A program made the position numbers and the translations under genes. From Glycine soja (taxonomy: Eukaryota; Streptophyta; Magnoliopsida; Fabales; Fabaceae): a stretch of DNA of 64,000 bases. Below are positions 5,171 through 44,907 of the stretch, in pieces. Below the pieces are notes generated by a model. It was not told the DNA's origin. It saw nothing but the letters and a program-made list of their open reading frames with translations, and ran no database searches. Location: positions 9,513,656-9,577,655 of the forward strand of contig NC_041011.1 of assembly GCF_004193775.1 (NCBI RefSeq), written 5' to 3'. How positions within the stretch are numbered: the first letter of the stretch is position 1; the number at the start of each line of letters is the position of its first letter.

Positions 5171-5585
5171 AAAAAAATTAATTAAGCACGTGTTCGAAGT
5201 ACTTAGCTCCCACAGGTTTAAGTTCGAAGTACTCAGCTCCTGGAGGTCGTACCTTGTGCTTGCTTCTCTTTCGTTGCAAATCGAACCCCAGCCCTTCTTT
5301 CATTGCAAATCGAACCCTGTGCTTACTTCTCTTTTATTCTTCTTTCGCTTCGTTTTATCTGCCGTTTTCGTAGCTCGACTTCAGTAGCACCAGAACCCTA
5401 GCCCCTCTTTCGTTGCAAATTGAACCCTAACCCCTCTTTCATTTGAGAATTTCTTTTAGTTAAGTGTGTTAATTATGATTAATTTTATACAGGAACGCAA
5501 TTTAAACGGCTTCAATAGTGCTTTACTTAAGTATACATATGTAATTTCTTTGCTTTACTTAATTATGCATTCTTTGGTCTTGTAG

Positions 5586-6566
5586 AAATATGCAGCAAAT
5601 TTGTTGGAAGGATTTTCTCAGACCCAGATTAGCACATTAGCCGTCAAGGATAATCTTCTTGTTGCTGGTGGCTTCCAAGGAGAGCTTACTTGTAAGGTGA
5701 GTCTACGTGATTTGTTCCTCATTGTATACATGTTCTTTAGGCTTCTGATACTTCATTGAATGATAAGTAACTTCTTTAGGCTACAGATACATCTCTCTCT
5801 TGGGGGCAGGGGATTGCTATTGTAGTTACTTCACTTGCCAATATGATTATTTAAAATGAGGAAATAATGTCTGGTATGCCACTTTTTATTTTTCCATGCT
5901 TGTTCCCTGGGATGTGGGTTGCTGTGAACAAATTCTCCCATGGCAAATGTAGGGCAGGTGGTTAGAGAGGGCTACACATTCATTAAAAGAATTGCAGGTT
6001 ATCAGTATGGAATCAGTGATCTGGAGGGTTTGGTTGATATGTGGTCCTTTGCATTAAGTTACTAAAACTTTGAGTCTAAACTCACTCTTGTGAAAACCTT
6101 ATCTTTTATATTATCCTTATGATCCTTGTATGTACTAAAGAGGAACACATTTTTCTTTATAGATTTTCATTTCTGGCTGATTCCCTGTTAAATATTGTTG
6201 AACTTTTGACTTTGAAGAGTAATATCTAGAGGTAAGATTGAATCTTGGGAAACAAAAGGCATGTTTGACCAGTTTGGTTAAAAATACCACCTTGTTTACA
6301 CTTTAATAAATGGGTACCTCTGCTTGTGAGGAGCTTGGTCTCCCTTATTTCTACTTTTCCTATTTCTGTCACAATCACTTCTCAATCAAGCTCCACTTAA
6401 TAGCCTAAGATTAACTTGTAGTTAATCACACTTGCTTTTGGGGGTGAAACCTTCCTTAATTCACAGGGCTTGCCTTAATAGATATTCATGATTCTATAAT
6501 CTCGGTGTTTTTTCCTCTCTTTCTCCTCTTGTGGCTTGCTTTTGTCTGGTTTGGCAATATATACTT

Positions 6567-6625
<59 letters not shown>

Positions 6626-7027
6626 ATTAATTTATTCATTTTATTGGATATGTAGTAGGAATTATTGATGCTACACAAGCCTGCTACTTCTCTTTGTTTC
6701 TCTAGTTTGTCCTATTAGGATTATGTTGAATGCAGCTTATAATGTCTATATTGAATGCAGCGTTTGAATAAGAAAGGAGTAAGCATTTGTACACGAACCA
6801 CACATGATGATAATGGTATAACAAATGCAATTGAAATATATGACACCTTAAGGTATTTTTCGTACCAAGTTTATTTGTCTTAGTTTGGAACATGAACATT
6901 GCTTGACATGGAAACTTTTGCAGTGGTGCAACTCATATTATTGCTTCTAATAATGATTGTGTTGTGAGAGAATGACACAGAAAGGTTTCAGCTTTTGAAT
7001 AACTTCCAGTTCTCTTGGCCGGTGAAT
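5586..7027 (+). pseudogene. Captured WD40-repeat protein fragment
   Basis: Three exons with GT-AG junctions are visible. Exon 5586-5696 reads ...QISTLAVKDNLLVAGGFQGE..., 6761-6852 reads ...CTRTTHDDNGITNAIEIYD..., and 6924-7027 reads GATHIIASNNDCVVRE. This series matches the middle of a conserved plant WD-repeat family (proteins annotated like S. pombe C2A9.03), recalled rather than searched. In the last exon a one-base shift puts TGA after VVRE (~6973); the next frame resumes as DTERFQLLNNFQFSWPVN. The 5' and 3' thirds of the gene are absent. It lies just inside the left CACTA end, in the same orientation as the transposase. Retained introns indicate capture of genomic DNA, not cDNA. Confidence 0.72.
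6567..6618. repeat. (TG)n(TA)n microsatellite
   Basis: A run of TG dinucleotides passes directly into a long TA run within an intron of the WD40 fragment. Confidence 0.95.
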
Positions 7028-8757
7028 GTGAGCACTCTATATGCAATCTGACTGATGCAGTATATTTTTTATTTTCTTTTCCTTTTTTAGCTAATTATTC
7101 TCCCATTCGGGTTCATTTCAACTGTCCTCTCTTATACTGCTGTATTTTTCTTATTATTTTCCATAGTTGATTAGAAAAAAAATTGTATAAGGAGTAGAGA
7201 GAAAACAGATAAAAAAGATGCAGGATAAGAACTCATAGAACTGATAAAGAAAATCAAAACAGAGACACAAAAGTTGAAGTCCTATAACTATAAAACTAGT
7301 TAGTGTAGAAAAGGTGTCCAATCTCTTTGTATATATTATATGTTGATTCCATGAACTAATTCATGTGCTGAAGACCAACGGGAAGCCACACACACACTTC
7401 TATCTATAGCAAATTTAGAGGATATGATGCACCCTTATAGATTGAAGCATTCCTTTCCAGTCACATACACCACACCTCACAAACCACATAGGGCCAAATT
7501 GTTTTGATTTTCATTTTAATTCTTATTTCCAAACCCTTGAAAGTGGGCATGAAGAAACTGATCCAACCAACTAGGACAAATTCATCTCTAGCTGGAAAAA
7601 ATTGACCTTAGAAGAAGCTTTGAATTTCCAAATTGAATTAACTAGGGAAAGCTTTCCCTTGTAGGAAAATAAATGAGAAATTGAAGATTTGAATGAAAAT
7701 TTGAAAAATACCAGAAGAATCCAGGTTCCAAATTCCATATCTCCTGTGGATAAGATGGTTATAGTGAACTATTGAAATTCATTTGGCTAACCTTCCCTGC
7801 TCACCATTTATTTCTTTAGTTACATATCAGCACATTACATATCAATGGCAGGAGGAGGAGATGAACATTGATACTGCATTTTTAATTGTTCTTGCAGTTC
7901 ACTTTGTTCCTATACATCTCTATTTCATCATAGAGATAAATAATCTTTTGCTCAAGTCAAATATAGAGATACCAATCCATCCCTCCCCCCCATCAATCTT
8001 CAAAGAAAGAATGTTGAGACAGAAAATAAAAGTTATTTTTTATTTTGTAGACCAGGATACATAAATAAGCCAAAGTGATTCCAAGGCTCCTAGCCCCAAT
8101 GACTGAAACCTTACTAGTGCAATTGATAAAATTATTGACTTGACAGTACTTGTTGGAAAAAAAAAATTCCCATTCTGAACGACACCATCTTCTCTTTATT
8201 TTCCTGAATCTCCCAGATATTATGAAATCTGGAGCTACCTTCTAAAATGCTTGCTTCATTGAAATTATCAACAGAGAAAATTTGAGTCATTGACAATATT
8301 TAGTTTCAATAGGCTAAGCGCATTGTTGAGATATGAAGAACAAAGGTTTTATCTAGTTCCATATAAATAACCATAGAGGACTAGATTTTGTGCAGGGATT
8401 GATTTTAGGTACTAGATTCAATGCTTCACCAAATTTTCCATGATATAATTGACTGAAAGATGTAAGGTAATAATCTCAATTGCTAATTCCTTTCCCCCCT
8501 TAACAAAAAGCAATTAGCCTCATTTAGGTACAATTTCATAGTGCGATCAATTTCATAGGTCCATTAATATATTGACCATGTTTGTTGTATGAGAGGTCTC
8601 TTTTCATTATAAGTATAGTTATCCTTAATTTTTTTTCAAACTGCATTTGATACTATGGCTATATATGTCATTCTTCTATGCACAATTTCTCTGCTGAACT
8701 TTAAATGCAAATTTTGACCATATGCCATGTGTTACATTGTATGTCTAGGTGACCATA
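7028..8757. other. CACTA interior without recognised gene
   Basis: AT-rich sequence with short open frames, for example 7783-8064, that show no recognisable family. It contains one copy of a ~60-bp repeat at 8052-8113 (see the pair at 11918-11980). Confidence 0.4.
8052..8113 (-). repeat. ~60-bp direct repeat, copy 1
   Basis: This stretch (aagccaaagtgattccaagg, then ctcctagccccaatga) recurs nearly unchanged at 11918-11980. The two copies flank the solo LTR. On the minus strand both could encode KVSLIGARSLGITLA-like residues, so this may be a duplicated exon piece of an unrecognised gene. Confidence 0.75.
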
Positions 8758-11437
8758 TGTAACATCCCATTTTTCATAAACTAATTTAAAAAGAATTATT
8801 ATTTATAAATAAATAAAGTTTTAAAAAAATGATCATGTTTTTATAAAGAAATAAATAATGAAAAATAATGGTTTGAAGAAAAAAAAAAGATATTTGATTT
8901 ATTCATTTGATAAGGAATAAAATAGAGTTTCTTTTTATAAAATATTAAAAATAAATAAATAGACTAATAATAAGTTGTGTGTACCCTAGGTATAAATAGC
9001 GATGTTAGGTCAGTTTTAGACTGACGATGTATTTTTTTTCCCTCATTTTCGTTTTCTCTCTTCTCCTCTCCAAAACCCTTTCTTTTTCTCGCAGCCCACA
9101 AAACCTATCTCAGAAAAATGATGATCTCACACTCATTCACCGTTGGATTGTCGCAAAATTTGAGTACCAAGTTCGCAACACAATTTCGAGCATTCTCACC
9201 GTTGGGAATTGCAAAATCATGTCTGAGCTTAGAGGAAAACCCTTCACATTGTAGCCTTTTATTTTCCCACAGAAACCCAAAACTATCTCGGTAAAACTAC
9301 GATCCCGGTTTCGTTAACCGTTGGATTTTCATGAAATCTAGATATGTTGTTTGAAATTCAATTGTGCTTTCACCGTTGGGATTTGCGAGATAATATTCGT
9401 AGATGGAGAAAAAGGAATCGCATAAAGACAGTACAAGTGGAGGCTTCAATCTCTTATCCGTCTCTATGACGTTCGAGAATTCTATCGGAGCAGTCGGAGG
9501 AAAAACTGGAGGAATCTCAGGGAACCGCTAGAGATGCCACTATCATTGTCGGAAGACACGTGAGTCCGCTTTGAGGTAAGGGATGAGTTATTTACAATTA
9601 GGAATTAGTGAGAACATGTGTAGGGATCCTTAGAGATATCAATTGGAATGAGTTTTGGGGTGTTTTTGCAATTTTCATTTTATCCTTATAATTATTATAG
9701 TGAATTATATATGTTTGACAGACCAATTTTTATGAAATTGATATGCTATTGTGTTGAGCGTGAATCCTATAAATCGAGTACTTTTTCTAATTAATATGAA
9801 TTGATGAAATAAAGTAAGGAGAAGTTTAGAGAGAGATATTGATTTTGTATTTTCTCTTTTTCTTGTTGTTTAGGATTTTATATATAATTTAAAAAATTAA
9901 TATCATAATTGAAACTGACCAAAATGTTCATATAATTATTTAGAATTTGTGCATTGAAAGCTTACTTTGAAATTTGTGATTCAATATGTTGTATGCTAGT
10001 TTATAGATATAGAGGTAGTTATTTATATTAATAATTTATGTAAATAATATTGTAGAGTGTTATAGTATGATTCCAAAAATTATTAAGTGTTGGAGTTTGA
10101 GAATATTATGTTTAAATTTCATGAACATGTGTATGTTGTACCTTATGAATATTATTGGGAATGTTATGAGATGGTTGATGTGACATTATGAGATGTGAAA
10201 TTGTGAATGAGTTTTGGTTGTGAATAAGTGTGTGATTAACTTTTGATGCGACATTATTTGTGTTTTAAGCTGTGAATTGTACAATAACCCGACCAGTGTT
10301 ATCTTGAGAAAAGTGTAAATGCGTAGTGTTAAAGAGAAAGTGTAGGTTTCCTATTTAGGAACCAGTGTTAAAGAGAAAGTGTAGGTTCCTATTTAGGAAC
10401 CAGTGTTAAAGAGAAAGTGTAGGTTCCTATTTAGGAACCAGTGTTAAATTGTAGCGTAATATGTTGTACGTGCTTAAGACACGAGTGTGAGGTCGTGGGT
10501 ATTGTATAATTCACTAGCAGTGTCTGCGTGCTAAAATGATTTTAGGGGTTGGACCTGAATCAAGAGGGAGAGGCCCTGACGAACTCTTCGGAGTGTAGGC
10601 CTTGGGGGTCACCGGGTTTGAGTGCTCCTTTAAGCCTATGCTGATCCCATATGGTTGGAGCATTCTCGCAAAACATCGTGACCCTGACTGGTCTCCCTAT
10701 GATCTTACTTAGTGAGAGTGACCTGGCAAACCCATTGTGTGGTGTATCTTGTTATGTACTCCTAAGCGCCCTAAGGTGGTTTTTCACTGACATGGTACCA
10801 CATTGCATGTAGGCTTGAGTCTTAGCATAATTGTCTCATGCGCTTGCTAATTGTTTATTATGAAATTGAGGTGTTATTATGTCTTGATCAGAACGTGTGA
10901 TTCTTGTGTAATGTGATTAATGATTGAAAAGTGTGATTGATGGATGAAAAGTGAACTTTGAATGACAAAGTGGTGGAATTACGTGAATTACGTGTAAGTA
11001 AGTTTTATTTGGTTTATATGATATGTATATCTAGTTGTCTTGTTCTCTATTAGTTAGGAATGTGATAACTCACTCCCAGTTTGTTGTTTGTGTTTGGATC
11101 CTGTGATGATCTTGAACTTTGTGTTCGGAGGAGCAGATGACTAGGTGAACTACTTTAAGAAATATTGTGCTTAAGGACGTCGGGACACAACGCTCTGATA
11201 AGATGTGACATTGGGATATAAGTTTTTATGTTAATTTTATGACGTTAGTTTATTTTATTTCACCTCACTGATTTAACAAAATATTTTTGTAAATTTTGAC
11301 GGCCTTATTTTGAGCCGAATATGTTTTTAATGAGTTTTATTTGGTAATTGAAGTGAATGTGAACCTTTTACCCATGTGATTTTGTTTACCAATATATTTT
11401 ATTTATTGATATATATATCGGGGTAGAGGGTGTCACA
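8758..11437 (+). mobile_element. Solo LTR of a gypsy-type retrotransposon
   Basis: The sequence starts TGTAACATCCC and ends GGGTGTCACA, and is flanked on both sides by CCATA (8753-8757 and 11438-11442), a perfect 5-bp target duplication. At 2,680 bp it is long for an LTR, as in large plant gypsy families. A TATAAATA box at about 8991-8998 gives the plus orientation. There is no internal region, so the element has probably collapsed by recombination between its LTRs. It lies wholly inside the 32-kb CACTA, so it inserted after the left arm was assembled there. Its short open frames are not convincing genes. Confidence 0.88.
10326..10447 (+). repeat. Tandem repeat, ~37-bp unit, about three copies
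   Basis: The unit agtgttaaagagaaagtgta + ggttcctatttaggaacc is repeated three times, with a partial fourth copy. Each unit contains the palindrome GGTTCCTATTTAGGAACC. It lies inside the solo LTR. Confidence 0.95.
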
Positions 11438-14083
11438 CCATACATCATTAAAGGAAATGTGAATCCTTGAAGTTTCTTCTTTGAGGACCACATTGTTGTA
11501 ACATGGAAAGGGGTTTGGCAATAACCCTTTGATAAGTGCAATCATTCCTTTATACCACCCCCTAATCATTGTGTCTGGAATTTGGGGGTAAAATCACAAT
11601 AAACTGATGTTAACATGGGAATTCTCAGAGAATATATTTTTGTAGTCCTTCAATTTCAAAAATAATCTTTTTTTCTCTTGATCTCCATAAAAATAAATAA
11701 GCATCACAATTACCCTAAAATTATTATGAGATTTTTTTCATAAAGAGTGACTAAATAATATTTTTTTAAAATTGAGGGGCAAAAAATAAATTATTTCTTT
11801 TTACAGCAAATAAATTTAAATTAGAAAACCAAAAATAAAAATGACTCAAATTAAATTTTAGTAACATGTCATAAAAAAATTGATTGGAACTAATTATGAA
11901 TAGTTGGTGTTCTTAGACCAAGATACATAAACAAGCCAAAGTGATTCCAAGGCTCCTAGCCCCAATGAGTGAAACCTTACTTCAGAAAAATCAATTTTAG
12001 AGTTTGCGTGTATCTCTCCATTGCTTAAGTAGGTCCTCAAACTTCTATCATTGGGTTTTAGTTTGGCATCTTCACAATCCTCTTCCTCTCTGCAAATGTT
12101 ATTTGACAACAAGAAACCTCATCATAAAAAAACAATTGAATATGATAGATTTATTTTAAGTTATGGGTAGGTATAGGTTTAAGGTGAATTGTGTCTATAA
12201 TTATAGATATATTTATAAAAATATTGATTTAATAGATAGAATACATGTATTAAGCTTTACCAATTCTTTAAAGTTGCCTAAATAAATTCTTTAAAGTCTG
12301 ATTAATTATTTTGTTCAACATTAGATTTTTTTGGCTTTATAAATAAATAAAAGAATGGCTTGTTACAAACTTTTTCATCCACTACAAAACGCTGCAGAGA
12401 TGTGATATTTATAGAAAAAATAATTATTTTATATAAATGAATTTCTTAGCCTAATTATAAATATATGTATATTATTCACCGAAAAAAATATGTATTAAGT
12501 TTCTATTTTGTTTTCTATTTTAGAATAAAAATTTATTTAAATTGATACTATTTTTGAATAAAATAATTTTTTATTCAATTTAAATATGCATAAAAAAATA
12601 CTAACAACCTTAAATTAGAACATATAATGAATTACAGATTGTTAATTTAATATATATGTTTTATACTAATGGGTTTTCACCCTTCTTCTTCACCCCCAAC
12701 CCTCCACTACTTGTATTTTTCATTAAAAATAATCTTCAAATATATAAAATTATTATAGGTGACAATTTTTCTAATAGCTGTATGCTGACAATTTAAACTT
12801 GAAATTAATCTTTAGTTAAATTAAATAATTTGTGTTAATTGATTCATGTGTATGGTTTCATTATTATAATGTCCTTGTTCCAACAAAGGCTATGACAAAG
12901 CATTTTAAAAAGCCCGGGTTTACTCAAATCCAAAGCATGACCAAAATAGTTGCCAACTAGGGACTAAATGTAGGAACTGATAGTTTTCTTTATTATGGTT
13001 TTTGTTTTAAAATTTATTGATAGTCTAGTTCTTTCTAGTCCAGTCCATTTATTATTGCTACAGAACTAGAAATCCTGAGAAATTATTATGATTCACTTAC
13101 ATACCCAAAAAACAAATCAGTACTGTACTCACATATATCAATGGCATAACAAATTGCTCCAGATCATGTATATTAATTTAAAACAAACTTTTATGGGATT
13201 AAGTGGAGAGATAAGTTGGAAACTTAGTGCAATAGTCAAAAGAGTGATAGAAAGTAAACCGAAATTAGTAATTGCTATTGCCAGGTCATTTTGAGGTCCT
13301 TCCATTCTGACTTTTGTTTATGTTTAGAAGAAATTCGTTGGTTAAACTATTTCTTTGTGCCTTATAGTTCCTATTTTAAATTTTAGTCATTGCACAAGAA
13401 AATTGTGAGTTGTAGTAGCCATATGAGAAAACATTAAGTGCTAGCCTCTACACATGCATAAGAATTATTAGTTTATACTGTGATGAGAAATCGCATCCTG
13501 TCATCCATGTCATACAGTACCATACTAATAAGTTCTAGAAAACTCATAGTTATACTCAGTTGTTATGACTTGAACCTAAAAATCAATTTTCTGTTGTAAT
13601 CACAGGTTCTTGAATTGAATAATTAAGTATATTTGGGACGTCGTGTTCGATTTTTTATTGCTAAAGGAAAGGGTCAATATACCTCCAATACAAGGTAATG
13701 TACATATTTAATGAAACTTTGCAATTGCTTTGCCTCTGGTGACTGTTTATCAATCAATTATTAACTATATCAATTTTTTTTATATATGCTAATTATTAAA
13801 TATAATGGATTTTATAAATAATGATAATAAAAATAGTGTCATCTTTTTTTGTTCATTCAGCATAATCAATATAGGCAACAAAACTAGCAGAATCTACAGC
13901 TTCCAAGAGAAGCATTTGAACATGGGAAAGTGCTCCAAAACTAAAACATGTTGAGACCAAGACGCTTCACGTTCAACTAAAACATCAACATTTTTTACCT
14001 TTTGTGAGGGTATGCTAGAAGTTAAGCAGCCAATCTTCATTCTTGAAAGTCCCTATATATTATAGGTGCATACGAATTACTAC
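11438..14083. other. CACTA interior, no gene recognised
   Basis: Very AT-rich, with only short open frames. It holds the second copy of the 60-bp repeat at 11918-11980. CACTACAAAA at about 12379 resembles a CACTA tip but has no partner. Confidence 0.4.
11918..11980 (-). repeat. ~60-bp direct repeat, copy 2
   Basis: It matches 8052-8113 with only a few differences by eye. The reading frame through this copy is a little longer (11894-12112, minus) and contains HSLGLGALESLWLVYVSW in one frame, which I do not recognise. Confidence 0.75.
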
Positions 14084-14455
14084 CTGTTTTAGGCCTTCCT
14101 TGGTAGCAGAGACCAACTTCTTTCCCTTAAATTCCTTAAGTTGACCAACAGCGTACTCATCAATAGCATCAACCATGTAGAGAACCTCGTACCCCTTCTT
14201 CCTAAGCTTTTCAAGGAAGGGGGAATTCTCGACAGCTTTCTTGCTTTCACCAGTAATGTAGTAGATGTCATTTTGTCCTTCCTTCATCCTCGTAACATAG
14301 TCCTTGAGGCTGGTCATCTCATCACCACTCTTACTCAAGTCATACTTGAGCAATTTAGCTAGCTTTGTCTTGTTCTGAGAATCCTCATGAATACCAAATT
14401 TCAAGTTCTTAGAGAAGCCTTCATAAAACTTGTTATAGTCTTCCTCAAAATGTAT
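14084..14455 (-). pseudogene. Captured HSP90 exon fragment
   Basis: The minus strand encodes [90 protein letters not shown] and [18 protein letters not shown]. This is the highly conserved middle/C-terminal junction of cytosolic HSP90, the ATP-dependent chaperone. Similarity stops after ATKEGLK, where a possible donor AAACAG|GTAGTA occurs. The ATPase domain and the MEEVD tail are absent, so no chaperone can be made. The exon itself has no stops, implying fairly recent capture or a short decay time. Neighbouring fragments on this arm are also minus strand. Confidence 0.92.
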
Positions 14456-17021
14456 GTTGATATCCTTAATAAAATGACATGAATTTGTTTCCTTAAAATA
14501 AATTTCTATAGCACCATGTAACTAATATGAAAGTCACAAGAGGTAAAGAATAGTAAAGAGAAGGTTAAAAAGTGGTTGTTGAAATTGAGGTTTTTCATTT
14601 ACTTCTCTAATGGCCAAAGTTGGGATGTAAAAGTTTCGATTTTTCACTTTCGATCCAACCTCCTGTTTGCAGCATAATTGTTGAACATAATGATAAGAAC
14701 GCCAAACCAAAAGAATCAGTGCGTGTGTGTGTTGGAGAAAAAATTGAAACAAACTTATCCCACACCAAACCAAAGGTGTTGTCCATTTGATCACATAGTC
14801 CTGCGCCTCTATATTCCCTTCCTTTTTATTGTTGTGATCTTCTCTTTCATGCACTCTCACTGATGGGTATGAACATTTCTATATCTGTCAAATAATAAGG
14901 GATAATATTATCTAATGCATAGCGACAACATCAAGGCTTTCCTCCATATCAGTACCCATATATACCTTTATAAGTTTGCGACCAGTTCTGCCTCTGGTTT
15001 TAGATTCATTTTATGATGGTTTGAAACTTTTCTGATCTTGAGGCCTTGCCACTAACACATTTTTAAAACATTGCATTTGCCCTTGGCACTTTATACATCA
15101 ATTTTTTTCCTGATGCTTTTCCTCTTCATGCTACATATATGTCTTAACTTGAGAGCCAAGACACAAAGTAGAACAAAAATAAAACTTTGAATGGAAGGGA
15201 GCAAAGGTGGTCAATTGATGCAATGATCTATGATCTTTTGCTGATTGACAAGCATATATTATATGATTCCCCATTAATTAACCTTCTTACTGTATTTTTG
15301 ACATCTAATTTTATTGATATTTGATGGGGACTAAACAAGAGGTTTGGTGAAATAGTGAGAATGGACACTTGAATGAATATCATCAATTTGAGGGATGGTT
15401 GATTTTGCTATAAGATAATAATGAAAACACAACAAAATTTACTTGTAAATTAAATTTTTTTGATGCTGTCAGACATTCAATTTCTTCAAATGCTTGTGTA
15501 CTTTAACATAAAGAGAAAATTGTAATGAAAGGAAACTTTACCTAGAGTGGATTGTTTTCAAGATAAGAGGATTAGGATGGAAACCCGAGTTCTGATCATT
15601 AAAAAATCAAAGATTGATTAGGTGCCAAATGTATGTCTAATAAGATCAAAAAGTAGTATATAATTCTGTGTTTAAGGGAATACTTCCAAAAATAAACCTA
15701 TTTGACATGAAACATGCATGCATGGATGCCACCTTAACTCTCAATCCAATAAACACTTGTTTGCATTAACGGCTAACCTAATTTATTCCAACTACCACAC
15801 ACTAAGTCTTCTTTCTCGAAAAACTTTAAATAAATGATTGAGAAAACAAAAGGGAGCAACTTGTGTGCATATTTGGCAACTAAGATGCTAAAAGTACTAT
15901 TTATTTTTTCAGGGTGAAAATTTCTGAGATATTTTAATTACCATTTGTTCTTCAAATGGATTAAAGGTTAAAAGATCTTAAAAGTCTTTTCTAATACGTA
16001 CCATAGATGCTTTGCCTAACTAATTGACTTCCCTAACTACTAAAAGTTGACCAATCAAGTATCTGAACTTTATCAGAATCCTGATGGGTATGTGGCCACA
16101 CATCATATATACAACTCAAAGAATAAGAGAGGAGTGATCCATATAAAACATTGAAATGATAAAAGATACAATGAAAGTAGGTGAGTGCTCTTTATAAAGC
16201 TTTTCTACAATAAGTGAGGAGCTTATCTCTTAAGAACTGGTTAGATACAAGTCAGAAGTGTTTTTGATAGTTTTTCTACTTGAAATATAAAGCTTTTTCA
16301 GCAGAAAAATTCTCAAAAAGACTTCTAATTAACCTTGTATCCAAACAGCTATTCTCTAACCATCTAATTTTACTCTTAACACTCTTCTTCTACACCTCCA
16401 TTTAGGAGGTGAGTCATCATACCTTCGGTGGAACCTCTCTCTTATGACCTGAATACAATAGTGTTTGTTGATTTCCTCTCATCCTTTGATTCCAAGGGTG
16501 AAGGATTGGGAAGAATCTCTTTTGAGTGAGGATGGGTTGTAACTTTATTGCTCTAATGTTATCGGTCTAGTTTGAATGAATATATTTTATGTATGGATTA
16601 TTTTGGTTATTGTTGCGACATTGGAACCGCGGATTCTTGGTGACTTTGATGGGCAAAGGCTTAGGAGTGGTTGAGGTTGAGAATTGCATGCCACTAGTAA
16701 TAAAATTGTTTAACTTCTTGGCAAGTGGAAACACTTCCAATACTAGATATATATGTGCATGTTATCTCTTTTTCTCCTGCGAGTCCATCATTTGTAGATC
16801 ATGTATATGCTGTACTTGAGGACCATGGGAATGTTATTCTTGAAGTTGATTTAAAAGGTATAGGATTCCAAATTATTATGTATCAGCTAGTACTGATATT
16901 GGCCATAAAACAGACCAATTTGTACGCCAGACTTGGACCATTTTCTGCAAATAATTATCAAATATTATATTGATAAAGTTAAAAAGTTATTTATGACAAA
17001 ATTCATAAAGAAAATGGTTTA
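14456..17021. other. CACTA interior, no gene recognised
   Basis: Short open frames occur (for example 14534-14860 minus and 16589-16973 plus) without a recognisable family. The 16.6-16.85 kb stretch is less AT-rich and reads VDHVYAVLEDHGNVILEV in one frame; it could be another decayed exon, but I cannot name it. Confidence 0.35.
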
Positions 17022-17465
17022 TCACATTTTCTTCTCAATGTTCATTAACGCGTCGTCTTTTTTCTTTAGTTCACCCTTTAGCTGGAAAACTTGTTTTCTC
17101 ACATTTTCTTTCTCAGCCTCATCCCCAAGAAGATAACTTTTCAAGTCATTATATTGAGTTCTAAGTGCTTCTAACTCTGACTGCAACACTCTACCCGCCA
17201 ACTCTTTTTCATACTCTAGATTCTTCATCCTATTTAGCTCATCAAGTGACCTTTCTGCTTCCTTCTTCAATAAAGCAATTTGACTCACCAGCTCATTGCT
17301 TTCCACTGTTCTACTCTATAACTGAGCCTCAGATTCCTCAAGTGATTTATTCATAAGCTCCAACTCATTTCTTAACATTTCTTTTTGTTCTACTTGGTCA
17401 GATAGGCATGATATCTCCACTTTAAGCTTTATTAGTTTGTAGACCAAGTCATGATATCCAAGCCA
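17022..17465 (-). pseudogene. Captured coiled-coil protein fragment
   Basis: The minus strand reads KLIKLKVEISCLSDQVEQKE, MLRNELELMNKSLEESEAQL, a TAG stop near 17319, then ESNELVSQIALLKKEAERSL and LQSELEALRTQYNDLKSYLL, ending GELKKKDDALMNIEKKM. The heptad-rich, Lys/Glu-rich composition is a long coiled coil. The ending EKENVRKQVFQLKGELKKK recalls the C-terminal part of plant myosin-heavy-chain-like (NT-C2 domain) proteins, but that assignment is from memory and weak. One stop and loss of both ends make it a pseudogene fragment. Confidence 0.65.
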
Positions 17466-18745
17466 TTGTCTCCTACTCGGTCACACCTAGATTAATTAAT
17501 TATACTTTATTTATTGATGCTTTTTAAATAACTATATAGTTAATTTTTAGTTACAATATTGATTTCTTAATTATTTTAGGTGTATTGATTTCTGAACGTT
17601 ATGTGTTTGATAGAAGTTGTAAAAAAGTTTTTTAAAAATTGGGGCCGGGGATAATTAAATTGATAAAAGAATTACTTATATTTTGTTTGTTGTGTTTGTA
17701 TTTCCATAATAAACAGTGTAATGTTATTTAAAATAATTTTATAAAAAATTATTAATAATCGTGTTTTAAAATTGATTTAAAAATAACATTTGAAACAATG
17801 ATATTTAAAAAAAAAAACAATATTCCTTTTGAATATGCTCATTTAGCTTATACCAAACAAAAGGCAATCTTCCAAAGGATGGGACACAGATTCAATGAAC
17901 TTCATTTATTTTAATTGTTATAAATAAATTCTTTTAAATTTCAAAGAACCAGACCTATAAGTAATCAGCATAAAAATAAATAATGTACATGCTTGTATAG
18001 TGGGTCCTGGGGACTTTTATTTTTATTTTTTTTCTTATCTGTGGGGGACTTATATATATACTTGATGGGGTACAACTCATCATGTTGATAAAATTAAAAA
18101 TATCATGATTTTTTGTGTTTTGCCTCCCTTATTTTTATAAGAAAAAATATATTCTAGGTTCCTATGATTTTACGTTGATAAAAATATATTCTAGGTTCTT
18201 ATTAATGAAAAACTATGATCAAGTGTTGAAAATGTGAGAAATTGAATGTGATTTGTATGGAGTAAACTCTAATTTTTTTCGTTAAAATTGTAAGCATTTT
18301 TTAACTTAAAAAAATTAGTATTTTATTCCCTACTTTGCAAAATATGATTTAGTTTAGTCTATTTTAGTGTAAAATGACAATAAAAATATACTTGCTTTGT
18401 AAAAAATAAAAAAGAATGCATGTGTCAATGTGTCAATGACATAATGACAGACAACAGAGAAAGTTACGGTACTTTTATTAGTCAGCAGCACATAAGAAAG
18501 AGCAAACTGGTCATCGGAAACAGGACATGTCAAAATTTTAACTCTTAATATGTAAGGAATGCTTGCTTTGTGATTGTGTGATACCATAACACATTCTAGT
18601 CTAAATCTCTGGACATAATCTTCTAATAATAGTAATGATAGTAATATAATTATAATACATTAGTGACCTAAATAGCTAGTTTAAGGTAGATGGGACTCGG
18701 GAAAGGCAAAAATGTATAATAGCATAAACAAGGGACCAAAATTAC
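17466..18745. other. CACTA interior, no gene recognised
   Basis: AT-rich, with a short duplicated phrase (aaaatatattctaggttc at about 18146 and 18182). No coding feature is supported. Confidence 0.4.
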
Positions 18746-26800: not shown

Positions 26801-27020
26801 GTTTTATGTAGAAGATCCATGCGACTCTAGATGGGCAGTGGTTTTGCAAGGGAGAACAATTTGTATCGGTCACCATGTTGATGGATCAACACTTGATGTC
26901 ACTGACATGCTATCTTTCTCCAAAGATATGCCTTCAAGTACTGTTGAACAAGAAGAGGATGATGTATATGCAAATCGTACTGATCATGACGAGGGTTTAT
27001 GGGAGAACATTCGTACGTAA
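23829..27020 (+). pseudogene. TNP2-like CACTA transposase, two nonsense codons
   Basis: A single frame of 1,064 codons runs from ATG 23829 to TAA 27018-27020, interrupted by TAG at 23841-23843 (fifth codon, where the family normally has Trp in MxRSW) and TAA at 25617-25619. Domains in order: an N-terminal transposase-associated zinc region (YFCPCVKCVNGR), the tnp2 core (~residues 230-560: RFKRLFATAHDASNLKWHA, VDVYDANQGKTFRLHAM, HQACPICEQNTS, FFDLPYWTNLHVWHCLDVM), a DUF4218-like part (LKSHDCHVLMQQLL, RLCFFFNAICRKVID, YPVERYMKVLKGY) and a DUF4216-like part (VPLFKCKWVNGNTGV, MGFTLVDLKKVGYKDDPFI). TNP2 proteins bind the element ends and catalyse excision and insertion in the nucleus. Apart from the two stops the frame is well preserved, so inactivation looks recent. 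Initiation downstream of codon 5 could bypass the first stop but not the second. Confidence 0.93.
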
Positions 27021-27163
27021 CTATGTAAGCACAACCATATAAGTATTACTTAACATTTCTAACATTTTTCATGCATAAATTGCTAAGTTGTTTTGAAAAT
27101 CATGCACCCTATTACATCATTGAATTTGACATATTTATTACACTTTTTTTTTTCCACAGGGCC

Positions 27164-30107
27164 ATGGAAACACCACCACCGTCCCCGCCACAATCAGAAA
27201 ACCCTCCTGAGGTTACTTCGAAAAGGACAAGACAATCCACGAGGCTCAGAAGTTTGACGTTTAGATGCTTAGATGGCCCATGGCCAGTTGTGAACGTGAA
27301 TCCGGCTACAGGTAGAGGGTCAGGGCCTCATAAAGAGATATTTCACAGTTATTTAGGGGTTGTCGCAAGGGAAAAAGTTCCTATTGTACACACGAATTGG
27401 AATGTTGTCCCCGACAATCTAAAGAGCTTAATATGGAAAGATATTTTGGTAAGTAATTCTAAATACACTTGTATTCATGATTTTGTTGTTAAGTTACTTT
27501 TAAAGGATTCATTTACATACTGTTACATAACTCCTTTTGTTGTGCAGCGCAAATTTGATATCCCTGAAGGTAAAAATGCAAAAAAAAAAAAAAAGGTGAT
27601 GTCAACAGTTGCAGCAAGATGGAGGAAATTTAAGTCTTGGTTGACTTCAAAATTTGTCTTTGCTGACAATGAAGGTCAACAAATATCTGATCCTACAGCC
27701 AAGTATGGCCTTGATCCAGAAACATAGGCGGAATTTGCAAAAAGCCGCAAAACCCCTAATTGGCAGGTTTGTTTAAGTATTTCTGTATCTACAATAATCG
27801 ATTCAATTTTTGCTTTCATTGTTTTGTAACATATATATGACTAGTACCAGCTTGTCTTTTTAAGGGTATACGAAAGAAGGCCCAGGAAATTCAAAAATTT
27901 AATGACTGCCCACACCTACTGTCTCGTGGGGGGTATGAACTACTTGACAAGAAACTTATGGAGGAGAAGAGCAAGTGTGGACATGAGGAACATTCGTGTA
28001 CTGAAAGCCCAACACTCAACGTCGACCCACCATCCCCAGTTGCAAGACACATGAAGTGGAAGATCACCAGCACAAAGCGGCATGGCCAAATGACGTATGA
28101 AGTGGCACAAGAAATTGCAGACAAAATTGTGAGTTCATATATTTTTTGGTTACTGTCATTGCCAAATAATGGTTAGCTAACCTAGTCAAATTTATTTTAT
28201 TCAAATTCAACAATTGTATATCCATGCTGGATTCATTACAGGAACAAGCAACATAGGGGAGTTTTGTTCCACATGGGCGACAGGACATACTCAACACGAC
28301 CCTTGGCCGACCTGAGCATCCAGGCCGTGTTCGCGTCGCAAGGACAGGTGTCACAATAAGCCAATACTTTGGCCAAGCCTCACATGCTTCTAGCACATCG
28401 TCACCATCGATCAACCAACAACAATTGGCTGATATCATCGGTGGAATTAAGGATGACATAAGAAAGCAGCTACAAGATGAGATAAGAAAGGAGGTACAGG
28501 ATGAGATAAGAAAGGAGGTACAACAAGAACACAAGCAGCAACAAGAGGCTTGGATGAGGGCAGTTGAAGAAAAACAGTGGCAAATTTTGGAGATGATGAA
28601 GCAAGAGTTAAAAAAATCACTGAAAGTAGAGCTATCTCATATTGCATCACATCAGTCAGCCCCCATTGAGGCGTTAGAAATACAAGCTCTACTTGCGCGT
28701 GTTAGCACAAAGGGTAGCTACCCCCATTGATGACGATCTGATGGGCTTGTTCATAGTTGTTGGGCAAAATACTGTGCTTGCGGGCTTGGGAAAAGTGTTT
28801 GAGAATTCATCCACCATACATAATGTTCGTTATGAAAATGATGTTGTTAAGGTTCAGGTTGTCAGAACATATATGCCTCACGCTGAGGTCCCTATTCCTA
28901 CATCAGAGGTTCATTATCTTGAGCAGGCCGTTGGCACATTCGTCGCATGGCCGACACATCTTGTTAGGGAAGTAACTAATGAGGTTAGTTTTTTTCTCTT
29001 ATGAATCTGTTCTATTTGTTGACATGCTTCTTCATCATGTACACTAACTTCAATTATCATAGGTGGTCGTAGGACTCGATAAGCCTCCATCAAAGTCTGT
29101 TGGAGAGCCGAACAGGTTAACATCTGTGGCCACAAATGACCCACTAGGAGAATTGGTTAAGAAGTCATATGTGGTTTACACAAAGCCAATGGATTTGGCA
29201 TGGGACGGGGCGAAATTCGGGTTACCTAATGCCACAAATGGTTTTTTCATCACACATGCAGATGTGACTGAAATCATTTTAGGTGACAAATGTTTAAACA
29301 TATCTGTACTGCAGCTGTGGATGATGTAAGTAAATCATATTATTTGACTGGTTGTCATATCTTATTGTCCACTCCATATTTGTCTAAGAATATTGTTGAT
29401 TGTGTTTAAAACAGGTTTATGAATGATTGGAGTACAAGCATTAGTTTTTCTCCAGTGTACGGTTTCCTTGAGCCCCAGTCTATACGCTGCACAAAGGACA
29501 CGCGTGAAGAATGATGTTCACATTAAGTTTGCAGTGAACAAGTACTTCGCAACCTTATTCAATTTAGCATTGGTCATTACTTGTAGTTTACTAGTCAAAA
29601 CATTACATGTTAACTTCGGCTTTTGTTATTGTCAAACTTAGTGCAATGAAGAAAATATGCAGTAATCTCCAAGGCAAGGACAATGCACCTCCACCTCCAC
29701 CTCAATGGATTGAGGCTAAGGTATGTTGTAATCCCTATTTTTTTGAAAATTTGAAATAAGTCTGATGTTTCAATTGGAATGATCCAGCATTTATTGAGCG
29801 CTTATATTGCATGTAGAGCCATGTACAACAAGGAGCATATGAGTGTGGATATTATGTGATGCATTGGATGTGGTGCATCGTTAGTGGCGGTTTGAAAAAT
29901 GAACTCCACAACGTATGTCCTCTATTAGACTAACAAATGAATTTGTGTAGTATGAAATCATACTTAAATGGTTGATGTACTAACTAAATTTTATTTTCTT
30001 CCCCTTGGTAGTATTTTTCTGATGGAACAGCATTAGACACTGACACCATGACGACACTACGCAAGAAATGGGCAGCCTATTTTCTAGAAGTTGGAAAATG
30101 GATGTAA
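27164..30107 (+). pseudogene. Second CACTA gene: PF03004-type transposase / Ulp1-like (C48) protein
   Basis: Multi-exon gene 143 bp after TNP2. Exon 1 (from ATG 27164) reads KRTRQSTRLRSLTFRC and HTNWNVVPDNLKSLIWKDIL. The next reads VMSTVAARWRKFKSWLTSKF then a TAG at 27725-27727. Later exons read KAQEIQKFNDCPHLLSRGGY, another TAG near 28255, SFVPHGRQDILNTTLGRPEH, and a coiled coil DDIRKQLQDEIRKEVQDE repeated (28440-28560). Then come LGELVKKSYVVYTKPMDLAW, FFITHADVTEIILGDKCLNI and FMNDWSTSISFSPVYGFLEP. The last exons read AYECGYYVMHWMWCIVSGGL and TMTTLRKKWAAYFLEV. The first half matches plant Ptta/En/Spm transposase proteins; the end matches Ulp1-type cysteine protease domains fused in legume CACTA ORF2s. 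The block expected to hold catalytic His and Asp is missing near 29500, with a frame change, while the Cys in ECGYYV remains. Confidence 0.85.
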
Positions 30108-30915: not shown

Positions 30916-31416
30916 ATGGAACCCCAGGATGAAGAAGAGATCCATAACTGTTTGATCAAGCTGGTTGCTTTATTGTTCCTTACATTGGGTTATCTTTCTA
31001 GTTACTTTCTTTAATGCAACATCAATGCAAGTGAAGGAATTGACTCTATTGTTGATATTTCATTACAGAGAAGTAATCCGGAAAGGCGAAGGGATAAGGT
31101 CTACATTGGTTGTGGAGCTGGGTTTGGTGGTGACAAGCCCTTGGCTGCTCTTAAGTTGCTTCAAAGAGTTCAAGAACTAAATTATCTGGTTCTTGAATGC
31201 TTGGCCGAGCGAACTCTTGCTGATCGTTATCAAATCATGATGTCTGGTGGTGATGGTTATGATTCTCAGAGTAGGTGTTCCCTGCTCTTGCATTGTTCTA
31301 ATCTTATTCTTAAGTTTAATTTTTGTAAAAATTTTCTGCAGTTTCTAACTGGATGCATATGCTGCTGCCTCTGGCTTTGGAAAGAGGAACTTGCATAATT
31401 ACCAATATGGGTGCAA
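30916..31416 (+). pseudogene. Captured AtuA/DUF1446-type gene, first three exons
   Basis: Exon 1 (30916-30963) reads MEPQDEEEIHNCLIKL; exon 2 (31069-31270) reads RDKVYIGCGAGFGGDKPLAA, LKLLQRVQELNYLVLECLA and ERTLADRYQIMMSGGDGYDS; exon 3 (31342-31416) reads SNWMHMLLPLALERGTCII then TNMGA. GT-AG junctions join them in frame with no stops. This is the N-terminal part of the plant protein family related to bacterial acyclic terpene utilisation protein AtuA (DUF1446); its plant role is not established. The remaining gene body is absent, replaced 65 bp on by LETM1 exons. It is the best preserved capture and could be spliced from a transposase-strand transcript. Confidence 0.85.
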
Positions 31417-31448
31417 GTAAGAATTTCTAATGCTGCATTATAAACCTG
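31405..31448 (+). repeat. Exon/intron junction repeat, copy 1
   Basis: Caatatgggtgcaagtaaga and the following attataaacctgg also occur at 34712-34825, where an extra ~70 bp separates the two parts at an ATTATA microhomology. See the second copy. Confidence 0.8.
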
Positions 31449-31481
31449 GCAGCAAGTAAAAAAATGCAAATGTGAAAATAG

Positions 31482-34067
31482 GGATGACTGGGCAAAGAAG
31501 TTTCGTCATTGGTGGGATGAATTTAAGTCTACCCTGCAACACTACTAGTTTGGTACAAAACTACTTTGGGCTGATATTAGGATAAGCTCCAGATTATTGT
31601 TGAAACTTGTCGGTGGAAAAAGTCTTTCTAGAAGGGAGAGGCAGCAACTCACAAGGACAACAGCTGATATTTTCAGCCTAGTTCCATTTGTTGTATTTAT
31701 CATAATTCCATTCATGGAGTTATTGTTGCCAGTATTCCTTAAATTATTTCCCAACATGTTGCCTTCCACTTTCCAGGACAAGATGAAAGAACAGGTGATT
31801 TTATTGTACTCATCAAACAATACATGCTTGACTACTGGTGTGCTTTATTATCACTCAATTTTGGGAAGGCTTAACTTGTAGGAGGCATTGAAAAGAAGGT
31901 TAAATGCAAGAATAGAATATGCCAAGTTTCTTCAAGATACTATAAAAGAAATGGCAAAGGAGATTCAGAACTCACAAAGTGGAGAAATGAAGAAGACAGC
32001 AAAAGATCTTGATGAATTTATGAACAAGGTCAGCTGTACTTTTCAAGATATAGTTGTTTTATGTTTTAGACACCCCCTTATATGTGCAATACTTGTATCA
32101 TTATTTTGTATTTATTATGTTATTAAAATAGGTCAGAACAGGTGCTCGAGTTTCTAACGATGAAATCTTAGGATTTGCCAAATTATTTAATGATGAGCTC
32201 ACCCTGGATAACATTAGCAGGTTGGTGCTTCTACCATTGCTTATGTTCAACAAGTTGTGCTCTCCAGTTATTAATCTTATATTTTGGGGTTCTGCTACTG
32301 TATTAATATGCCTATTTGGTTATGAAAATGGAAAACAGGCCTCTCTTGGTAAATATGTGTAAATATATGGGCATCAACCCATATGGAACTGATGCATATT
32401 TGCGTTACATGCTCCGCAAAAGATTACAGGAGTAAGATTCATTTATTCATTTTCCCTTTCTGTTAACTCTGGTTCTTCTCTGGTAATTTTCATTTTATGC
32501 TTTATGGTGAAAATTTTCTTTGTATGGTGGTTTAGATAAGGATTTTTGCAATTTCTTAGATTTCTTAAATATTTGTTTCACCAATATCTGGATGTCTGCC
32601 TCCTCGTTCACTTCTTGGTTAGTCATAGTGCATGTGTCAATTGAAGAATACATGAGGTTCTTACCTTATCTTATTTTGAGAGGGGGCTAAAAGTAGAACA
32701 TTATTTCATGATGTTGTACTTTTCTATCATTGAATAGAATTTGGTTAGAGCTGAATCGACAGCTCTGATGGAAGTTCAAATGTTATTGTTGTAGGAGAAA
32801 GTTATCTTCTTTGCATGGCTTGTTATGCTAATGTTAAGGGAATAACTCTTGTCGGCATTCAAAGAACTTAGATGGTTATTATGGTCCTTTAGTGTCTTTG
32901 ACTTTTTTAGAGTATGCATTAGTATATGTTTGGTTTAGAGTTTGATAGAATTGATTTTGTGTGAACTAGTCTTCTGTGCACGACACTCTTAGCCTAATAT
33001 TAGTACTTGTTTGGTTTAGAGTTTGATAAAATTGACTTTGAATTGTTGAATGTGATTGAGAATTTGAGATATGTATCTAAGTAAATCTGAACCACATATT
33101 TACATTGGAACATGTGTGTTTTCATAGAAAAGTGCCAGAATTGATTTTCTAATTTTAAAACAGACATTGCCTTAATATATAAATATAATTGATGTGAGCC
33201 AAACAATTTATGTTAGTGCATCCCCTTTATGATCTCTCTCTTTTACATGTTCAATTCTGATTTCGCAGAAACTCTAAATTCTCTGCAAGCAAATCTTTGA
33301 CCCATCCGCCCCAGTTATAATATCCAATAATCATTGTACCCATCCCCTCAATAAAACCAAGTAAAATATTACTTGTATCACAGTGACATCATAATTAAGA
33401 CTTGCAAGGCTAGAGCTTGCTTTAGAGCAGTAATAGTTCAGCGACATTGGTTATTTTGGGGTGAAAAAGTTACAAAAGCATCTGATCCGAAATCCAATTG
33501 TTTCTATTAGCAGTCTAGAGTTTCAACATTAAGACGTTAGCAATGGAACCCAGCCGCCAATTTGGCATAATGAAGGGGAGGAGGTTGGTAATTCAGTCTA
33601 TGAGATGTCTATCCACAAGATTTTCCAAATCCTATTTCTCTTTCATTTTAACTGAGAATTAAATGTTTTGACGTTCTACGAAACAAGCGCTACTTACATA
33701 CCCACAATTGAATCCATTACTTGGGATCCTCTCTCTCTTATGAATTAAGTCATTAACCAGTACCAGAACTCTGTGGCCGTTACTCCTCCTGGAAATGAAT
33801 CCGTCCCAAGTTTTCAATTCATATAGAATTTATAAGATTCTAGTTAGCACTGAAACATGGATAAAGGTTTTTATTTCTTTTCCCTTAAAAATCTTTATGA
33901 CTAACTGTTGGAAATAAATGTCATTCAAATGCTTAGTCATGTTCTGGCAGGGATTATGATGGGAAAGTGACACCTGAGGAGGTAGTATCTGTTGCTATGT
34001 ATCTGAAGGACACTCTGGGCAAAGAAGGAATTCATAAGCTTATCAGCAACCTTTCCAAGGATAGCGG
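31482..34067 (+). pseudogene. Captured LETM1-like gene exons
   Basis: Exons with GT-AG borders: 31482-31794 (DDWAKKFRHWWDEFKST, LVGGKSLSRRERQQLTRTTA, then the hydrophobic LVPFVVFIIIPFMELLLPVF, LKLFPNMLPSTFQDKMKEQ); 31882-32028 (EALKRRLNARIEYAKFLQDT); 32132-32220 (RTGARVSNDEILGFAKLFND); 32339-32431 (PLLVNMCKYMGINPYGTDA, YLRYMLRKRL); and, after a 1.5-kb gap, 33951-34067 (RDYDGKVTPEEVVSVAMYL, GKEGIHKLISNLSKD), the C-terminal EF-hand. LETM1 is an inner mitochondrial membrane cation/proton exchanger. Defects: TAG at 31546-31548 where Trp is expected, and loss of the presequence and of all exons between the ribosome-binding-like domain and the EF-hand. Confidence 0.93.
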
Positions 34068-35564
34068 TCAGTTCTTGTGTCATTTTCCTCCTTTATCTCA
34101 TACTGCGGCAATAGATATCACTAATGAAATGTCACTGATGTGCCCTCTCCAGTTAATGCAGTTAAAAATTTCTAATATAAAAGCACAAAACAGCACCTAA
34201 TGCAACTTAGGCTTTCCTTTATAGCTTTTTTGTCTTTCCTTTTTTTAGCCTTTTTTACTTTCTTCCTTGCTATAATTATTATGAGCCACGTGACCAACAG
34301 CTCCTGAGAAAACACTTGTGTGTGAATGCGCGTAACTATAACTTACATTATAACTAAAAAGAAAGTTGGGTACATTAGTTCAACTCATTGTCAAAGACAG
34401 TTTCCCAAGCCATCTTGGGACTTCAATGATAAATTTCTTCACAACTGAAAATGAATCATTCTCTAAACCAAATGAAAGTCAGTCACCTCCGTGATGGTTG
34501 TTTGAATTGGACCTTGTGCATATTCTTCCATGTATGTCATAGTTCTTTAATTTTTTTTTACAATTTTATTATTCAATGTTATCTTGATGACTCATCTGCA
34601 ATACCTAGAGGGGTGTATGGAACTGTGAAATTGTGTAGATAATCCAACATCTTAATTTGAAAGTTATTTCTGTTGCCAGATTGACCACTCTTTTTGCATT
34701 TTTTTTTTAGCAATATGGGTGCAAGTAAGAATTTCTAATGTTGCATTATAGATAATCCAACATCACAGACAACTAGTGAAGATAATAGGCTATGCATGGA
34801 TGGGCTTTGGATTATAAACCTGGTTCTGCACGTGTTTGACCAAAATTCTTAATGTCCAATTTTTATAGCTGAGAATTATAAACCTGTGTCAAATTAACAA
34901 TCAACGTTCTTCTAATTTGGTGATTTTTGATTAAACCATAATTTTATTTCCAAGGTTTCCCTGAACTTGCTGCTATATCGTCATGTCGCTTTGGATTATC
35001 AGATTCTGCACTGCACATTAGAATTTCTATGTTCTTGAAGTTTTCAGTTCAACTGTTATAACACAAACTTGCTATTAATGACTTGGGAAACTCCAATTGT
35101 GAATGAAGTTGGAGCAAAAATTTGAAACTGAGTTGTTGAACTTTGAAGAGCTAGTTAGTTGTATTAGTTATCTGCAAATTAGTTCTTTATTTTGGTTTGA
35201 ATGCTATTTAAAGTAACACATTAATTATGTGACCTTCTCGGTCTAAGGAAGTAACACGTCATAAAGGTTTCTTACATACCTCACGTGTTTCTTTTCATGG
35301 GTGAGATAATAAGTAGCAATTGACATATGAAGCCAACAATTTTTTTGTAGATCGATACTGTGTGGGGTATGTAAAATTTTGTATTACTATGATACTTGCA
35401 TATGTGCTTTTATATTAGTTCACTGGCTCAATGGTACATATATGGAGGGTTTGGTCCTTTCTCATATGCATCCCCCCCCCCCCCAAATATCTTTTATATT
35501 AGTCAATACTATTTTTTAATTCGCTTTTATGTTGACTTACTTTTTTATTTTCATCTACATATAG
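34068..35564. other. CACTA interior between LETM1 and aldolase fragments
   Basis: No exon recognised apart from the repeat at 34712-34830. A 13-bp C homopolymer lies at 35472-35484. Confidence 0.4.
34712..34830 (+). repeat. Exon/intron junction repeat, copy 2
   Basis: Caatatgggtgcaagtaaga with its following bases matches 31405-31440, the end of the AtuA-type exon 3 and its donor. It is preceded by a T-run ending TTTTAG, as at an acceptor. Here the intron continues for ~70 bp before attataaacctgg, so copy 1 looks like a deletion between two ATTATA sites. Confidence 0.8.
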
Positions 35565-35962
35565 TGCAAAAGTGACCATGGAAGCTGCAAAAGCTGCAAT
35601 AACAGGTGGCATTTCAGTTGTGAGTATACTTTTGATGTTCTTTTATTTTGAGTCATATGTATATAACTCAGGACATTTTATATGGCCTGTTTTGTCTAAT
35701 TTTTAAAATTGGTCCTACTAGTTAATTACTTTAAATGCTTTTTGGGCCATATATATGTTAATGGTGTGCTTCTCATCATCTATTTTCTTTTTACATGTAG
35801 TTGGAGATTGTGGTGTCGACCTCAGGTGTGTTTGAGGTTGTTTACCTAAATTTGTCTACTTCCTTACTAGTCTTGTTCTTCGATTTATAATTCATATGCT
35901 TGGTTCGATCTGTGCAGGTTCTACAACAGCTGGTGAAGGAGCATCCTACAATGGCCCTAGAG
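35565..35962 (+). pseudogene. Captured KDPG/KHG aldolase fragment
   Basis: Three short exons with consensus borders: 35565-35619 (AKVTMEAAKAAITGGISV), 35801-35836 (LEIVVSTSGVFE) and 35918-35962 (VLQQLVKEHPTMALE). Joined, they give the early beta/alpha segments of plant 2-keto-3-deoxy-6-phosphogluconate aldolase-like proteins, a class I Schiff-base aldolase family. The Schiff-base lysine and the rest of the barrel are absent, so no enzyme can result. The frame has no stop through these exons and has the same orientation as the transposase. Confidence 0.8.
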
Positions 35963-44886: not shown

Positions 44887-44907
44887 TTTGGTGTTTTTAT
44901 CATCTTC

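Follow-up and report, generated by a model that had tools for sequence, protein, structure and literature searches.

CACTA transposons are established as collectors of host gene fragments in soybean, Ipomoea, wheat and Chenopodium (PMC1947982, PMC5105172, PMC4290129, PMC8978399). One of these, Tgm-Express1 of soybean, is described in PMC1947982 as a Glycine CACTA element holding both intron and exon segments from five host genes. Here we analyse a 64,000-nucleotide stretch of DNA (hereafter the window), in which one large CACTA (EnSpm) DNA transposon spans positions 4958–37045. Whereas Tgm-Express1 holds its five fragments in 5.7 kb, this element extends over 32 kb and carries its own transposase together with pieces that, by similarity, can be assigned to nine host genes. 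We read it, with a probability of roughly three in four, as a CACTA element of a Glycine-like legume with a broken transposase, which gathered pieces of about nine host genes through template-switching repair and later spread, whole or in part.

Element ends and transposase

The original prediction, made from the sequence alone, placed the gene pieces inside a single CACTA element. This holds, although the element has to be extended at both sides, from 5586–35962 to 4958–37045. Its termini, CACTACTAAAAAAAG (at 4958) and CTTTTTTTCAGTAGTG (running to 37045), are inverted copies with a CACTA start that agree at 12 of the 13 outer bases, and TAA adjoins both of them in the manner of the 3-bp target duplication of the CACTA superfamily. 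Because random triplets would match with a chance of 0.022, these flanks are supporting evidence for the element, short of conclusive. A terminus scan of the whole window, allowing up to two mismatches, returned two left-type and four right-type termini; among these, an exact CTACATCGG motif lies close inside only at 4958 and 37045, and 37045 is the only right-type terminus with a cluster of CTACATCGG repeats inside it. The repeat arms are distributed very unequally: the 570 bp of the right end contain 22, with two mismatches allowed, and the left end contains one, beside two other palindromes. The right end folds much better than shuffled sequences do, the z scores of three segments being –8.0, –6.0 and –3.6.

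The tnp2-type transposase is broken by one internal stop, an in-frame TAA between its two halves. It is the one transposase locus that Pfam found in the element, the other open reading frames (ORFs) scanned giving none. The exon-like ORFs that follow it, candidates for a TNPA-like protein binding the subterminal repeats, matched no family in the Pfam search. Inverted ends, a 3-bp duplication, unequal subterminal repeats and a tnp2-type transposase are four of the five features by which the CACTA superfamily is recognized, and the element is of the transposase-bearing kind, now probably no longer autonomous.

Other CACTA-type ends occur in the window. A second right terminus (3152–3471) lies 1.5 kb to the left of the element. 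The right-type terminus at 50971 is followed by TAA and lacks the CTACATCGG repeat cluster, and directly to the right of this CACTA-like terminus is a palindromic cluster of TCATACGGATTGATGATC-type repeats (51020–51420).

Host gene pieces within the element

All eight gene classes first proposed for this locus (WD40, HSP90, coiled coil, subtilase, SKD1/VPS4, AtuA/DUF1446, LETM1 and KDPG aldolase) do sit between the CACTA ends, as judged from Pfam or PDB matches or from identity to Glycine proteins, with KDPG aldolase weakly matched only (Table 1). The strand pattern was also described correctly: every right-arm piece is on the plus strand, and in the left arm WD40 is on the plus strand and the others on the minus strand. 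The idea of eight unrelated captured genes stands as far as the abundance of host pieces goes, but not in its count: the subtilase region combines an SBT5.3 gene with an SBT5.4-like gene, giving nine host genes by similarity, and SKD1 and SBT5.3 may be one capture (see below). The nine genes probably came in about eight captures.

Table 1. Features of the CACTA element, in window coordinates.
Feature	Position	Strand	Description
Whole CACTA (EnSpm) element	4958–37045	+	32,088 bp; TAA flank on each side
Left end	4958–5165	+	CACTACTAAAAAAAG and three short palindromes, one containing the CTACATCGG motif (4993)
WD40-repeat protein fragment	5586–7040	+	Three exons, two introns; end set by eye
68-bp segment	8048–8115		Direct repeat at 11914–11981
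Solo-LTR-like (long terminal repeat) nested insertion	8758–11437	–	2,680 bp, TG...CA, CCATA on both sides; left arm
HSP90 fragment	14063–14521	–	Uninterrupted ORF; Pfam E 1e-55; PDB E 2.7e-48
Coiled-coil (C2-NT/myosin-like) fragment	17025–17480	–	One internal stop
Second subtilase fragment, SBT5.4-like	18744–18881	–	46 residues; 41/46 identical to Abrus SBT5.4 P0334
SBT5.3 subtilase fragment	19073–20009	–	Start codon, signal-peptide exon and I9 prodomain exons
SKD1/VPS4 fragment	21517–22314	–	3' exons to stop codon; shortened C-terminal part; one internal stop
Transposase, first half	23844–25616	+	Transpos_assoc, Transposase_21 (tnp2); Pfam E 7.1e-92
Transposase, second half	25620–27017	+	DUF4218, DUF4216 (Pfam); after in-frame TAA
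Probable second element gene	27029–30106	+	Exon-like ORFs; no Pfam family
AtuA/DUF1446 fragment	31069–31416	+	Two exons, one intron; spliced Pfam E 1.5e-16
44-bp AtuA exon/intron segment, first copy	31399–31442	+	Other copy at 34707–34750
LETM1 block 1	31482–32431	+	Four exons, one internal stop; Pfam E 2.1e-25
LETM1 block 2	33951–34066	+	38-residue exon of the EF-hand region
44-bp AtuA segment, second copy	34707–34750	+	42/44 identical to 31399–31442
KDPG-aldolase-like fragment	35572–35962	+	Three short exons; weak scores
Right end	36476–37045		Stem-loops formed by 22 repeat arms of CTACATCGGTT type (two mismatches allowed); terminus CTTTTTTTCAGTAGTG

The WD40 piece, for which the Pfam search gave no convincing match, is identical to the Glycine max WD-repeat protein P0125 at 78 of 83 residues (94%); its third exon shifts reading frame through a 2-bp loss, judged by eye. 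HSP90 homology covers residues 25–145 of the 153 in that ORF and is nearest to cytosolic forms. No Pfam family scored above its own cut-off for the coiled coil, which shares 122 of 132 residues (92%) with a Glycine C2-NT protein and has on its 5' side a 15-residue stretch (17427–17471) that is not of donor type. The SBT5.3 piece, once spliced, matches Inhibitor_I9 (Pfam E 4.4e-15) and agrees with Glycine soja P0242 at 130 of 136 residues (95.6%), and SKD1/VPS4 has a best PDB match of E 2.1e-30. The two LETM1 blocks, which by their similarity belong to one gene, are 1.5 kb apart, with about 281 residues of the gene absent between them. Least secure of all the gene calls is KDPG aldolase (Pfam E 0.013, under the family's own cut-off; PDB E 0.12).

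The Pfam scan covered 148 ORFs, namely 141 of the element's 221 ORFs of at least 45 residues plus seven shorter ones, with ORFs of the transposase region and some others standing outside it, and within this set only the known classes scored better than E 0.001. Ten further families (best E 0.0026–0.037, one member each, Cytochrome_B best) were taken as chance matches. An Rfam search of the window returned nothing at gathering scores.

Capture from DNA was originally argued from GT–AG introns kept wherever exon borders can be seen, and such introns are indeed visible in the WD40, AtuA, LETM1, KDPG, SKD1 and SBT5.3 pieces. The exon borders were, however, set by eye with GT/AG in mind, so the dinucleotides by themselves carry no independent weight. 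The exon joints of WD40 and LETM1 align without gaps, and therefore introns, and hence capture from DNA, are supported. In SKD1 and SBT5.3 the introns were seen by eye, with one unclean site in each (an acceptor in SKD1, a donor in SBT5.3), and HSP90 and the coiled coil, having no visible intron, are uninformative in this respect. These alignments support capture at the DNA level, introns included.

Donors of the captured pieces

Five fragments could be placed by protein search (WD40, coiled coil, SBT5.3, LETM1 and SBT5.4-like), and the first four of these are nearest to Glycine proteins, three of which by name come from chromosomes 02 (WD40), 05 (coiled coil) and 18 (LETM1). For LETM1, a local comparison gave 203 of 213 residues identical to Glycine max P0002 versus 202 of 213 for Abrus, and in the search itself Glycine and Abrus tied. 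In trees of these short pieces, the coiled coil falls beside P0127 and the copy from chromosome 05, not beside that from 08 (support 100/99; chimeric models and P0123/P0124 left out), and SBT5.3 groups with P0242 (94/91, slightly below the tool's own mark); the trees of WD40 and LETM1 did not resolve their placement. For at least two of the pieces, these groupings make capture inside the Glycine lineage likely, and they suggest that the window itself comes from Glycine.

Two of the pieces may share a single origin. On the minus strand of the element, SKD1 runs to its stop codon (21517) and is followed, after about 1.5 kb without a recognized exon, by the SBT5.3 start codon (20009). In Sesamum, the gene models P0329 and P0333 each give a single protein in which SKD1 precedes a subtilase, an arrangement that matches the element in order and orientation and suggests that such genes are neighbours there, oriented alike. 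Because these models join SKD1 and a subtilase likewise, SKD1 and SBT5.3 may represent a single captured stretch of chromosome. Two facts weaken this reading: the subtilase of the Sesamum models is just 55–56% identical to the SBT5.3 piece, and the fusion models carry an unverified mark in their source.

A coiled-coil piece shared with chimeric Glycine gene models

The Glycine gene models P0121, P0122, P0140 and P0235 are chimeras, each combining parts of several genes unrelated to one another, and three of the four are named putative trehalose-phosphate phosphatase J. At the thresholds used, trehalose-phosphatase and PPR segments occur in all four, kinesin in three, UDPGT in two, and an HSP90 match and PORR in one each; none of the models matched the WD40, SBT, SKD1, AtuA or LETM1 pieces of the element at E 0.001.

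The coiled coil is what connects the element to these models, being identical to P0121 at 110 of 112 residues. At nine columns its residue is seen in none of the nine donor-type orthologues. Its states Q53, Y76, L80 and T94 are found in all four chimeric models, V113 in three, M137 and M144 in two each and D9 in one, and E75 is the element's own. P0123 and P0124, partial paralogues from Glycine max, lack Q53, V113, M137 and M144, and because they have Y76, L80 and T94, these three states may come from the donor lineage. The 15 residues of non-donor type at the 5' side recur in P0140, within a stretch matching at 50 of 51 positions whose remaining 36 residues are donor-like.

Such a common, altered coiled-coil piece points to spread after capture, and by these residue patterns it is better evidence of a layered history than the divergence of the fragments is. 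We tentatively suggest, while thinking it rather less probable than its negation, that the coiled coil was captured once in Glycine, was then changed, and afterwards entered at least two differently composed chimeras, the pieces behaving as exchangeable modules. If this is true, the CACTA elements of one genome would exchange captured exons through template switching and would supply chimeric genes to its annotation. The mixed composition of the models also suggests that some Glycine genes annotated as trehalose-phosphate phosphatase may be chimeras made by transposons rather than enzymes.

Proposed mechanism and alternatives

Under the capture and repair scenario that we favour, an excision or break within the element would start repair synthesis, which would copy unlinked host loci via template switching. 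The copied product would then be joined into the element through abortive gap repair, reportedly the mechanism of Rubin and Levy, and this would have happened more than once. Later spread of the element, or of parts of it, could account for the presence of the coiled-coil piece in other chimeric Glycine genes. Comparable filler DNA has been described at breaks in plants (PMC2686159), as has template-switching gap filling for animal Pack-TIRs (PMC8277862), and PMC8978399 cites Rubin and Levy on how capture takes place.

Return to a first template after copying another would leave repeats, and for this reason the repeats of the element would fit template switching. The 44-bp AtuA repeat that flanks LETM1 (E 6.5e-14) scores 73.7 bits, whereas none of 20 Markov-resampled sequences exceeded 46.8 bits, and the 68-bp direct repeat at 8048 and 11914 is identical at 65 of 68 positions (E 4.5e-26, 114 bits). 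The AtuA repeat around LETM1 and the interrupted copies of LETM1 and SKD1 are traces that would be expected from template switching. A 13-bp repeat also sits at the SKD1 shortening.

Several observations weigh against this scenario. Direct 13-mer repeats no more than 120 bp apart are not rare in the element (about ten outside the right end), and the 13-bp filler at the SKD1 shortening, being weak evidence, was accordingly not counted as proof of stitching. The left end resembles the CACTA end at 3471 (E 2.7e-7) more than its own right end (best E 0.002). For the SBT5.4-like piece, Abrus and Psophocarpus are closest among the best 120 of 370 matches, a set that was ranked mainly by SBT5.3 and that contains no Glycine match to this piece. 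In P0235 and P0140 the coiled coil is followed by a short stretch of HSP90, which agrees with the element's HSP90 much less well (in P0235 at 35 of 71 positions with gaps; by eye, at 21 of 27 in an ungapped core) than the coiled coil does with its counterpart (110 of 112 in P0121), and an inherited coil–HSP90 block was rejected. Nor does protein divergence point to differing fragment ages: differences to the nearest Glycine protein number 5 of 83 for WD40, 6 of 136 for SBT5.3 (two of the six being gaps or an unclear exon joint), 9 of 212 for LETM1 (counted without the stop) and 10 of 132 for the coiled coil, which are homogeneous in a chi-square test across these four fragments (p = 0.55; 0.33 with SBT5.3 counted as 4, and 0.28 with, in addition, the longer WD40 reading of 7/103). 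HSP90, SBT5.4-like, SKD1, AtuA and KDPG, five of the nine genes, lay outside this test. Fragment divergence was therefore rejected as a sign of serial capture; of the dense serial capture first proposed, the many pieces stand, differing ages are not supported, and serial capture itself is plausible.

The content of the element might instead have been enclosed at a stroke. In the hybrid-end model, proposed for Arabidopsis Pack-CACTA and described in a review (PMC13317346), the left end of one CACTA element and the right end of a neighbour enclose a stretch of chromosome and so form a larger element. The palindromes here do mostly differ between left and right, the left end is the closer to that at 3471, and SKD1 and SBT5.3 may derive from one unbroken piece of chromosome; yet nearest relatives on several Glycine chromosomes misfit a single stretch, the subterminal motif occurs in the interior as five scattered copies (up to two mismatches) and none exact, and unequal end repeats are normal in soybean Tgmt*, with 4 on the left and 24 on the right (PMC2613891). 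We consider this origin unlikely. Still less probable, in our judgement, is a nest of several smaller CACTA elements that made their captures separately, inserted into one another and later lost their inner ends. Another CACTA-type end is just 1.5 kb away (3471), and the solo-LTR-like insertion shows that nesting occurs here, but the terminus scan found no inner terminus with a subterminal repeat cluster and only one transposase locus was found among the ORFs scanned.

The case named at the outset as fatal to a capture reading, namely that the pieces are simply resident genes that have decayed in place, is hardly credible; the CACTA ends would then belong to unrelated elements nearby. This reading can draw on the chance of about 0.02 that random triplets match and on the further right-type terminus followed by TAA at 50971, which however has no repeat cluster. 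It is disfavoured because the nearest named Glycine proteins are on three different chromosomes; moreover, the pieces are fragmentary with the transposase located among them, and chimeric Glycine genes contain the coiled-coil piece as well.

Surrounding window

Outside the element, a Ty1/copia-type pol reading with a YVDDLLIT-like motif was recognized by eye only at 1–1430, and a Ty3/gypsy remnant (Retrotrans_gag, E 2.1e-10) occupies 44517–47834, with direct repeats about 2.95 kb apart that are 90–92% identical. A 300-bp direct repeat (53741–54040 and 56861–57160; 98% identical) has its copies 3.1 kb apart. Two minus-strand ORFs lie further right, one of 235 residues (58587–59294) that matched no Pfam family and one of 289 residues (61607–62476) with a LEA_2 match under the cut-off (E 0.014); we take both to be likely host genes of NHL/LEA type.

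Comparison with known systems

Captured coding DNA between terminal inverted repeats, the hallmark of Pack-CACTA and Pack-TYPE elements, was found here. Pack-TYPE elements are non-autonomous, however, and PMC8903248 sets transposase-matching elements apart as autonomous or autonomous-derived; the element is not Pack-TYPE, because a tnp2 gene, though broken, is present.

In architecture it resembles soybean Tgmt*, which the available part of PMC2613891 describes as a 20.5-kb CACTA element with 13-bp ends, a 3-bp duplication, a tnp2 gene, and few left but many right subterminal repeats (4 and 24, compared with one and 22 here). Unlike the present element, Tgmt* came up without captured gene fragments in that part of the source, and its motifs TTGGCAG and AATCTTACAG were absent from 4958–5558 and 36245–37045 (two mismatches allowed for the 10-base motif). 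The subterminal motif of Tgm-Express1 is reported to be identical to that of Tgmt*, and thus differs from the ends studied here in the same way. The Tpn1 family of Ipomoea is likewise CACTA-type, with its interior replaced by captured host genic DNA, but belongs to a different plant family, and its earlier characterized copies lack intact transposase genes, to which PMC5105172 adds a putative autonomous copy, TpnA1. In wheat, 140 CACTA capture events on chromosome 3B, chimeric genes included, involve 145 genes and thus mostly one gene each (PMC4290129), whereas about nine genes share one element here.

The literature searched yielded no case of nine genes within one CACTA element, which does not mean that no such element has been published. 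The present element makes a good case for tests of how CACTA transposons acquire host DNA: it combines nine genes, the majority of them with introns, what may be a contiguous capture of two genes, an insertion bracketed by a repeat, and a module that other chimeras share. Gene hoarding by CACTA elements is already known from the systems above, and this element is a new, crowded example of it.

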